DNA of 34,851 bases from positions 1 through 34,851 of the forward strand of contig JALSLI010000182.1 in NCBI GenBank assembly GCA_026988395.1, written 5' to 3'. Of the stretch, positions 31,425-33,613 are shown in pieces. Numbering within the stretch: position 1 is the first letter of the stretch; each line of letters starts with the position of its first letter. Under the pieces are notes generated by a model. The model was not told where the DNA came from, did not search any database, and was given only the letters and a program-made list of their open reading frames with translations. Position numbers and translations under genes: made by a program. The DNA is from Flavobacteriaceae bacterium. GTDB taxonomy: Bacteria > Bacteroidota > Bacteroidia > Flavobacteriales > Flavobacteriaceae.

Positions 31425-31605
31425 ACACATCTCCTGTGCACCTCTCATGAAGGGCGTTTTGCGTCTCTTAAAAAAAAATTTATCTTTTTTGATGTTTATT
31501 TTTAGTTGTCTAGGACTAATTTTAATAGCTTCAAATATGATATAATATAGACAAACAATCTCTATCCGTTCAGCAATCCCCTCTCGAGAGGGGTTAGGAG
31601 TGTGT
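31425..31605. mobile_element. MITE-like element, copy A (~181 bp)
   Basis: This non-coding element shares a core with copy B at 33421-33598; I count about 13 differences over the last ~150 bases. The right end keeps the terminal inverted repeat (31577-31605), including the 16-base perfect palindrome CCCCTCTCGAGAGGGG. The left end (31425-31455) is recognisable but decayed. The two copies are in the same orientation. Copy A fills the space between two convergent genes, from the mntR-like stop codon to 13 bases before the TRIC gene's stop. No transposase is present; mobilisation in trans is inferred. Confidence 0.72.
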
Positions 31606-31618
31606 TTAGAGTAGAATA

Positions 31619-32221
31619 TCAATCAATCTTAGGCAATTCCAATTTATATTTAACTGCGATCAATCGAATAGTGATAACCGTAATTATCGTTCCTAAATAC
31701 TGAATGTAATGTGGTGCATCAATTTGATAAAGTACCAAAAAAACAAATGCACCTATAAAACATGCCAAAGCATAGATTTCTTTTTTAAAAATTAGTGGGG
31801 TTTGTTGCGTTAAAACATCCCTCAAAACACCTCCAAAGACAGCTGAAACAACTCCCATAATAGCTGCAATAAAGGGATGTAATCCAAAATTTAATCCTTT
31901 TTCGGTTCCCAACATTGTAAAAACTGCAATTCCGATAGTATCAAATAAAAACATGGTTTTACTTAGTGGTGCAATCTTTTTTTTAAATAAAAAAACTACC
32001 AAAACAGCAACCAAAATTGTCCAAATATAATTTAGATCTCCAATCCAGTTTATAGGATGGTAGTTAATTAAAACATCTCTAATCATGCCTCCACCAACAG
32101 CGGTAACAAAAGCTATAATAATCACACCAAACAAATCGTACTTTTTTGCGGAAGCTACCAAAGCACCACTTATAGCAAAGGCAAAAGTACCTATGATATC
32201 TAATGCATAGATTAAATCCAC
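31619..32221 (-). CDS. TRIC/UPF0126 family membrane channel
   Basis: A 200-residue inner-membrane protein with about seven hydrophobic helices and two internal repeats, each carrying a Gly-rich RDVL motif (VGGGMIRDVLI and FGGVLRDVLT). This is the UPF0126/YicG layout, now described as bacterial homologues of trimeric intracellular cation (TRIC) channels. The N-terminus IGTFAFAISGALVASAKKYDLFG is diagnostic. The ion and direction are not known for this branch. It follows the DEAD-box gene by three bases on the same strand, so the two are probably co-transcribed. Its 3' end meets MITE-like copy A. Confidence 0.92.
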   Translation of the reverse strand: MDLIYALDIIGTFAFAISGALVASAKKYDLFGVIIIAFVTAVGGGMIRDVLINYHPINWIGDLNYIWTILVAVLVVFLFKKKIAPLSKTMFLFDTIGIAVFTMLGTEKGLNFGLHPFIAAIMGVVSAVFGGVLRDVLTQQTPLIFKKEIYALACFIGAFVFLVLYQIDAPHYIQYLGTIITVITIRLIAVKYKLELPKID

Positions 32222-32224
32222 AAT

Positions 32225-33337
32225 CTATCTTTCTTGAAAATTAATATTTAATTTTTTTTGTAAATCGTAAATATCTTGCATTTCACTAGGTAAAACAAGA
32301 GCAATAGATTCTCCTTTTTTACCGGCTCTTGCCGTTCTACCGCTACGATGTGTATAATATTCGCGTTGCTCAGGTAATTGATAATGTATTACAAAACCTA
32401 AATTTTTTACATCAATTCCTCTGGCAGATACATCGGTTGAAACCAAATATTGCAAACTTCCGTTTTTAAAAGCACGCATTACTTTTTCACGTTCTTTTTG
32501 TTGCATATCACCTTCTAATGCCTTAACGGAAAAACCTTCCTCTTGCAACTCATCTGCTAATTTTTGGGCTCCCAGCTTCGTTTTCACAAAAATAATTCCT
32601 CTTTCTTCTTGCTTTTCGTCTAACAATCCCATCAACGTTTCCAATTTATTTTTTAGAGTTGTCATTTTATATTGATGAACAATATTTTCATTTACAACAT
32701 TACTTCGGTTTACCTTTACCTCTACTCTATCTTTTTCCATATAATTACGGATGATTTGTTGTATTTCATCAGGCATTGTAGCTGAAAAAAGCCACGTGTT
32801 TTTTTGTCCTTTTGTGTATTGTAGAATTGTATTCAGATCTTTTTTAAATCCCATATTTAACATTTCATCGGCTTCATCTAATACTAAAGTTTTTATATTT
32901 CTTAAATTAATGACATCTCTTTCAATTAAATCGATTAATCTTCCCGGAGTTGCTATTACAATATGTGTTGGTCTTTTTAATCGTTGCATTTGCTTATCAA
33001 TTTTCTCTCCTCCGTAAACAGCTTCCAAAAATATTTTTTTATCCAAATACTTTGTGTATTTAAATAGTTGTTTTTTTATTTGTTGTACCAATTCTCGCGT
33101 AGGGGACAAAATCAAGGCTTGAATTAACGGTTGATTAGCATCGATTGTTTCTAATAACGGCAGACCATAAGCAGCTGTTTTTCCTGTACCGGTTTGTGCC
33201 AATCCGATGAAATCGGTTGGTTCATTAAGGAGTATTGGGATTGCTTTTTCTTGAATTTCTGTTGGATTTTTAATTCCTATTTCGTTTAATCCTTTTATGT
33301 AATCTTCTATTATTCCTAGTTGTTTGAATGATGCCAT
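32225..33337 (-). CDS. DEAD-box ATP-dependent RNA helicase
   Basis: A 370-residue RNA helicase with both RecA-like domains. Motifs are the Q motif (NPTEIQEKAIP), motif I AQTGTGKT (47-54), PTREL, TPGRL, DEAD (154-157), SAT (185-187), the RGIDVK segment and HRSGRTARAG. It ends soon after domain 2, without the long basic tail seen in many RhlE/DeaD proteins, so it is a minimal core. The start at 33337 (MASFKQLGI) is chosen because a TATTTTTG promoter element lies 18 bases upstream. A longer GTG reading from 33424 would cross that promoter and enter MITE-like copy B. Likely roles are ribosome assembly or RNA turnover in the cold; the specific target is unknown. Confidence 0.94.
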   Translation of the reverse strand: MASFKQLGIIEDYIKGLNEIGIKNPTEIQEKAIPILLNEPTDFIGLAQTGTGKTAAYGLPLLETIDANQPLIQALILSPTRELVQQIKKQLFKYTKYLDKKIFLEAVYGGEKIDKQMQRLKRPTHIVIATPGRLIDLIERDVINLRNIKTLVLDEADEMLNMGFKKDLNTILQYTKGQKNTWLFSATMPDEIQQIIRNYMEKDRVEVKVNRSNVVNENIVHQYKMTTLKNKLETLMGLLDEKQEERGIIFVKTKLGAQKLADELQEEGFSVKALEGDMQQKEREKVMRAFKNGSLQYLVSTDVSARGIDVKNLGFVIHYQLPEQREYYTHRSGRTARAGKKGESIALVLPSEMQDIYDLQKKLNINFQER

Positions 33338-33354
33338 TGTTCTAAAATTTCTTG

Positions 33355-33362
33355 CAAAAATA
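33355..33362 (-). promoter_or_regulatory. Predicted -7 element of the DEAD-box - TRIC unit
   Basis: The minus strand reads TATTTTTG, an exact TAnnTTTG match, 18 bases before the ATG at 33337. A TTTTG lies 15 bases upstream of it, slightly closer than usual. The leader would be only about 11 bases. Confidence 0.5.
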
Positions 33363-33420
33363 CGGTTATTTTGTTTACAAAAGGAGAAGTTTCTTGTTAT
33401 GTTAATTATATAGTGGATTG

Positions 33421-33598
33421 ACACACCCCTACCCCTCTCTAGAGGGGAGTTTTGCGTCTCTTAAAATAAAACTTATCTTCTTTGATGGATATTTTTAGTT
33501 GTCTAGGACTAATTTTGATAGCTTCAAATATGGTATAATATAGAGAAACAATCTCTATCCGTACAGCAGTCCCCTCTTGAGAGGGGTTAGGGGTGTGT
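33421..33598. mobile_element. MITE-like element, copy B (~178 bp)
   Basis: The better-preserved copy. The terminal inverted repeats of about 28 bases (33421-33448 and 33570-33598) begin ACACACCCCTA and differ at roughly two positions; each contains an internal near-palindrome CCCCTCT-GAGGGG. The core has a conserved TTGTCTAGGACTAA stretch and a hairpin ATAGAGA / TCTCTAT (33540-33558). It lies between the DegT-type gene and the DEAD-box promoter, upstream of the latter by about 60 bases. I see no convincing target-site duplication and no coding capacity. Confidence 0.75.
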
Positions 33599-33613
33599 TT
33601 TCTGTATAAATGC

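Follow-up and report, generated by a model that had tools for sequence, protein, structure and literature searches.

What kind of element is represented by two near-identical non-coding stretches in a Flavobacteriaceae genome, and which enzyme could have copied them? The window, by which we mean the whole stretch of 34,851 nucleotides that was analysed (contig JALSLI010000182.1), contains both. A reading made from the sequence alone took them for MITE-like elements with terminal inverted repeats, moved in trans by an insertion sequence with the same ends. The comparisons described here point to a different partner: the copies are probably non-autonomous palindromic repeats of the REP/BIME type, and their cognate enzyme a nuclease of the DUF559 family (PF04480).

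Both copies are intergenic. They align without gaps at 89% identity over 176 nt (31441-31616 and 33434-33609), and BLAST matches 31441-31607 to copy 2 at 90% (E 2.5e-61). The features are as follows.

31425..31605, plus strand: copy 1, a non-coding repeat unit of two inverted modules with an AT-rich core between them (89% and 90% match to copy 2 in the two alignments)
31425..31456, plus strand: left module of copy 1, degraded; placed by sequence reading and alignment, with the inner end set by eye; it fails the module pattern
31578..31605, minus strand: right module of copy 1, read on that strand as ACACACTCCTAACCCCTCTCGAGAGGGG; differs from the module by 1 mismatch
33421..33598, plus strand: copy 2, repeat unit; from self-comparison, BLAST and the module pattern
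33421..33447, plus strand: left module of copy 2, ACACACCCCTACCCCTCTCTAGAGGGG; 0 mismatches, inverted repeats
33448..33570, plus strand: core of copy 2, which lacks a coding frame of at least 80 aa; it resembles that of copy 1 and varies more among the genome's other copies
33571..33598, minus strand: right module of copy 2, read on that strand as ACACACCCCTAACCCCTCTCAAGAGGGG; 0 mismatches

The near-identity and intergenic position of the two stretches had been recognised in the sequence-only reading and stand. The inverted ends it described are clean in copy 2 (33426-33448 / 33570-33592, 87%; 33421-33435 / 33584-33598, 93%) and degraded on the left of copy 1, which begins ACACATCTCC. Its core without a coding frame is also seen here: no ORF of at least 80 aa lies inside either copy, and a listed minus-strand ORF with a GTG start (32225-33424) extends into the first four bases of copy 2. 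The neighbours of copy 1 are an iron-dependent repressor gene and a glycine-transporter family gene, and those of copy 2 encode a DEAD helicase and a DegT aminotransferase; none is a mobility gene. The flanking genes of the two copies differ, and the pair is therefore not a segmental duplication, for which homologous flanks had been named as the sign. No direct target duplication is visible by eye at either copy. Folding of the entire copy 2 yields -77.9 kcal/mol, whereas shuffles average -42.8 kcal/mol (z -8.5) and none of 200 folds as well; this energy comes mostly from pairing of the two ends. A known RNA family was rejected, as the window gives no Rfam match at gathering thresholds. A conserved RNA structure of the core is likewise unsupported, with a double change in 1 of 19 predicted pairs among nine copies.

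Each unit comprises two inverted modules that flank an AT-rich core. In a module, one to four bases separate the tag ACACACCCC from a 7-bp hairpin, CCCCTCT-loop-AGAGGGG. A multi-copy family had been predicted, with a whole-genome search using copy 2 as the check, and this search did recover further copies: BLAST with copy 2 returns 36 pieces on 8 contigs of its own assembly (2.37 Mb, 200 contigs, 84% complete). The stretches fetched from these 8 contigs contain at least 26 modules with no more than two errors. This number follows the removal of 5 rows with 4-5 mismatches from the 31 found; four of them overlap, by coordinates, a listed module on the opposite strand, and the fifth (contig C131, 8632) marks the right end of a unit that escaped the pattern on its own strand. 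Many modules are arranged in opposite-orientation pairs at two spacings, tag-inward at 26-40 bp and tag-outward at about 120-250 bp, and the window copies are tag-outward pairs. Arrays of modules are located on contigs C190, C131 and C181, the last of which also bears a run of left ends in a single orientation. The core is alike between the window copies and has drifted in the other copies of the genome. The same genome holds tandem repeat arrays at C131:4144-4645 (L033) and C190:1737-2361 (L032); one of these lies upstream of a large protein gene whose ends look repeated and the other upstream of apparent sugar-nucleotide genes, with gene identities assigned by reading.

Across the class, the exact module pattern was observed in 35 of 395 sampled genomes, the window's own included, and a reversed control pattern in 0 of 395. 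The most copies in a single genome are 51 forward and 47 reverse. In five congeneric genomes, none of up to the best 20 first-look candidates scored per genome matched the repeat. Same-genus genomes do hold relatives of the window's neighbour genes (among up to the best 40 first-look candidates per genome) and keep these genes without a match to the element. Clean empty sites in the genus are unsupported, as the outer neighbours differ in the two genomes that were read (L180 and L181). Six viral contigs of IMG/VR carry the exact 28-base module, in 8 stretches altogether; carriage of DUF559 together with modules by phage was rejected, as the fetched viral module stretches contain no DUF559 at E 0.001.

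In other genomes, paired modules enclose a gene. Ten of ten tag-inward module pairs with starts 410-566 bp apart, taken from the first places listed per genome, enclose DUF559 sequence. Seven of them contain standalone genes of about 125 aa (L109-L114 and L117), one holds a copy broken over two frames (L116, genome G393), and the last two are in-frame inserts in a methionine synthase (L115) and an Eco57I-type methylase (L121). No DUF559 is enclosed by the other fetched pairs, which are tag-outward or closer together (L122-L127). In the loci printed, the gene is located between two inverted modules and not inside one, and the right-module letters of copy 2 (ACACACCCCTAACCCCTCTCAAGAGGGG) also adjoin DUF559 genes in other genomes. 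In DUF559 loci the tags are directed toward the gene, whereas in the window copies they point outward. DUF559 is present within the stretch examined in 5 of 30 retained module loci.

The association is also seen from the side of the gene. Among 53 Pfam-found DUF559 loci, which were not chosen by module (23 and 30 from two Pfam-model searches), 33 exhibit flanking inverted repeats above the best of 20 shuffles, compared with 1 of 53 control windows placed 1 kb farther out; this set includes two pieces of one gene (L067 and L073), two loci already known beside modules (L061 and L078) and some hits that cover part of the domain. The other 20 loci have no inverted-repeat flanks above shuffles. A profile search yielded 80 loci, 4 of which were dropped at contig edges, and flanking repeats were found at 62 of the remaining 76 compared with 8 of 258 control windows (Fisher p 1.9e-44), in a set biased by seven query proteins that came from module-flanked genes. 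At the level of genomes, PF04480 was matched in 181 of the 395 sampled, that is, in 28 of 35 module-positive genomes versus 153 of 360 others (Fisher p 2.4e-5, with relatedness ignored); these counts, like the open-frame counts given below, were made by hand from tables. PF04480 has no match in the window's own assembly, at 84% completeness, nor in 6 of the 34 other module-positive genomes.

One gene interval, which we take to run from rpoN to cvfB, carries DUF559 with modules in two genomes of a genus (L110 and L111) and is unfilled in four (L161-L164). Divergence of the spacers is too great for base-exact placement of the element ends, and the filled and unfilled versions are at most compatible with homing-type copying. 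Searches of open-access literature, a coverage that omits most subscription journals, yielded no paper linking DUF559 to a repeat family or an inverted repeat.

The modules of different loci are not identical, and their variation tracks the enzyme. Four tag types were defined by pattern among the 80 profile-search loci, where 14 of the 80 rows are untyped. The types of the two flanks agree in all 39 loci with both flanks typed. On a nuclease tree of 124 columns, in which 33 of 77 inner branches are open, tag type requires 8 changes against a shuffled mean of 19.9, and 0 of 200 shuffles are as low. Mucilaginibacter has two tag types that fall on separate nuclease branches, and Pontibacter likewise; module type therefore follows nuclease lineage rather than host genus. 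One species, Mucilaginibacter rigui, has a DUF559 gene of each of two clades. The second Mucilaginibacter tag type has copies at several places in 5 of 6 searched genomes of one genus. Stem letters vary by tag type with pairing kept (CCCCTCT, CCCCTCC, CCCCCTT and CCCTCCC). A perfect stem of 7 or more accompanies 75 of 104 tag hits, compared with 28 of 5200 shuffles. A perfect stem of at least 6 immediately ahead of the tag is lacking in 22 of the 69 T1 tag hits.

The AlphaFold model of one DUF559 protein has a pLDDT of 93. The closest solved structure is NGO0050 (3hrl, Z 16.1), and the model also superimposes on the catalytic domain of I-Bth0305I (3r3p, Z 11.8) and on Vsr (1cw0, Z 10.6). The DUF559 sequence profile matches 3hrl and 3r3p as well. 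The predicted fold of DUF559 is thus that of Vsr and the I-Bth0305I homing endonuclease. One DUF559 gene is assigned to the EDxHD homing-endonuclease family in a passage of a genome paper (PMC9403480). Compared with I-Bth0305I, whose Vsr-like nuclease fold the DUF559 partner of other genomes shares, DUF559 loci differ in being flanked by inverted hairpin modules and linked to dispersed gene-less copies, and no intron or intein context was noticed in the loci read.

Tagged inverted hairpins, an enzyme gene enclosed by them, copies without a gene and the agreement between module type and nuclease lineage together lead to the reading of the window copies as REP-like repeats parted from their enzyme. 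The copies look orphaned in their genome, because its assembly has no PF04480 match; we infer that the nuclease either was lost or is encoded in sequence that the assembly does not cover. A DUF559 nuclease would recognise the module, extruded or single-stranded, through the tag and stem of its own lineage and would nick or cut there. Repair or replication might then copy the flanking stretch into new sites. A gene located between two modules would spread itself in this way, and gene-less module pairs such as the window copies would be moved in trans. The earlier proposal of a non-autonomous element with a partner in trans is consistent with neighbours that are not mobility genes and with an assembly lacking PF04480. 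The insertion sequence with matching ends that it proposed as parent fares less well: the same ends elsewhere carry a DUF559 gene and are arranged like REP/BIME, which makes a classical full-length insertion sequence an improbable parent.

The resemblance to REP/BIME repeats and their RAYT enzymes is one of design. In the portion of PMC2817692 consulted, short tagged hairpins form opposite-orientation pairs and arrays, an enzyme gene lies between two inverted copies, and the repeat type agrees with the enzyme lineage; all of these are observed here. The differences concern the parts. The linked gene in the loci looked at is PF04480, a nuclease with the predicted Vsr fold, whereas RAYT is an HUH tyrosine (Y1) transposase. 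The tag is ACACACCCC and not GTAG or CGTC, and each window copy spans 180 bp, much of it a long core.

Several observations count against the REP-like reading. The window's genome and six other module-positive genomes have no PF04480. Twenty of the 53 DUF559 loci lack detectable flanks, and many modules are away from any DUF559 gene. Target duplication, excision and a base-exact empty site were all unseen in the loci compared. DUF559 is a nuclease family, and the joining of DNA by it is purely hypothetical. Finally, the moving unit is ambiguous, because the tag direction in DUF559 loci is opposite to that in the window copies.

The main rival explanation reverses the dependence. The modules would be palindromic repeats that are older than the association and independently serve some cellular or selfish function; DUF559 homing-type nuclease genes would insert at them, such that the nuclease depends on the repeat. 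Insertion sequences are reported to target REP repeats in the part of PMC1525189 available to us; 7 of the 35 module-positive genomes, the window's included, have modules without a PF04480 match, and most modules are away from DUF559, as the 5 of 30 retained module loci illustrate. A target of this kind is at odds with a module type that tracks nuclease lineage across hosts and agrees on both flanks in every doubly typed locus, and with genes that lie between two inverted modules instead of within one. We regard this explanation as unlikely, though deserving of serious consideration.

As ordinary MITEs, the window copies would belong to a DDE-transposase insertion sequence that is absent from the assembly or went unrecognised; this is distinctly improbable. 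MITEs are defined in the section of PMC3733652 consulted as non-coding, multi-copy elements of 70-300 bp with inverted ends of 15-30 bp, and the window copies correspond to this description: they measure 180 bp, have inverted ends of about 28 bp, are highly similar, belong to a set of several copies and contain no coding frame of at least 80 aa. An assembly that is 84% complete in 200 contigs could also miss the parent. Against this stand ends that are themselves hairpins and occur in arrays of both orientations, the lack of a direct target duplication by eye at the window copies, and the module loci read, in which no insertion sequence bearing these ends was noticed.

A RAYT or IS200/IS605-type (HUH) transposase acting on the window copies as its REP sequences is very improbable. 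The design of tag plus hairpin, inverted pairs and arrays is that described in the consulted part of PMC2817692, and the own genome does have a single weak Y1_Tnp match of 28 bits. This IS200-like gene (C100:12544-12789, L279), in a 196-aa frame, has no module nearby, and a Y1_Tnp partner was rejected on its distance from the modules. No Y1_Tnp relative was detected at E 0.01 among module-locus ORFs with one query sequence, a search of limited reach. The part of PMC3733652 consulted sorts most REPs into two tag classes, GTAG and CGTC, and the tag of the module belongs to neither. Maintenance by selection, as terminators, mRNA-stabilising hairpins or structured RNA and not as mobile DNA, would fit the strong fold of the entire copy 2 and the position of both copies between genes, and is scarcely credible given the lack of an Rfam match in the window at gathering thresholds, the variable core with its compensatory change in 1 of 19 predicted pairs, the lack of a match in five same-genus genomes and searches of that genus that point to absence of copies at the same positions.

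Beyond the window, the REP-like reading has a wider form. DUF559/EDxHD nucleases and tagged hairpins may constitute a class of selfish DNA in its own right, encountered here in Bacteroidota and several further phyla: REP-like, driven by a homing-type nuclease, and able both to occupy core genes in frame and to seed gene-less copies; we put this forward tentatively, as a proposal whose chances fall a little below even. If the link is true, the large family DUF559 of unknown function would acquire a role, REP-like repeat populations would have emerged with a second kind of enzyme, and some peptide inserts in core bacterial proteins could be understood as translated hairpin modules.

In other genomes, core genes also carry DUF559 in frame, either internally or at the end. 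The host genes include methionine synthase, leucyl- and other class I tRNA synthetases, RecG, histidinol dehydrogenase, a glutamine-amidotransferase-domain protein and an Eco57I-type methylase. These loci were recognised by Pfam scanning (L056, L062, L057, L115, L121, L131, L133, L137, L146, L149, L152, L155, L157 and L158) or by reading (L060, L066 and L071). Open frames of at least 400 aa hold 32 of the 53 Pfam-found loci, and 20 of these 32 have inverted-repeat flanks above shuffles. Rickettsia palindromic elements are described in the consulted part of PMC3733652 as palindromic repeats in frame inside genes. DUF559 with flanking inverted repeats is likewise in frame inside host genes; the inserts looked at here differ by including a nuclease gene, and the likeness drawn is one of description. 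Beside the in-frame DUF559 of L115 and L121, the peptides TPLLRGAGGVS and PQPLSRGE resemble translated hairpin modules.
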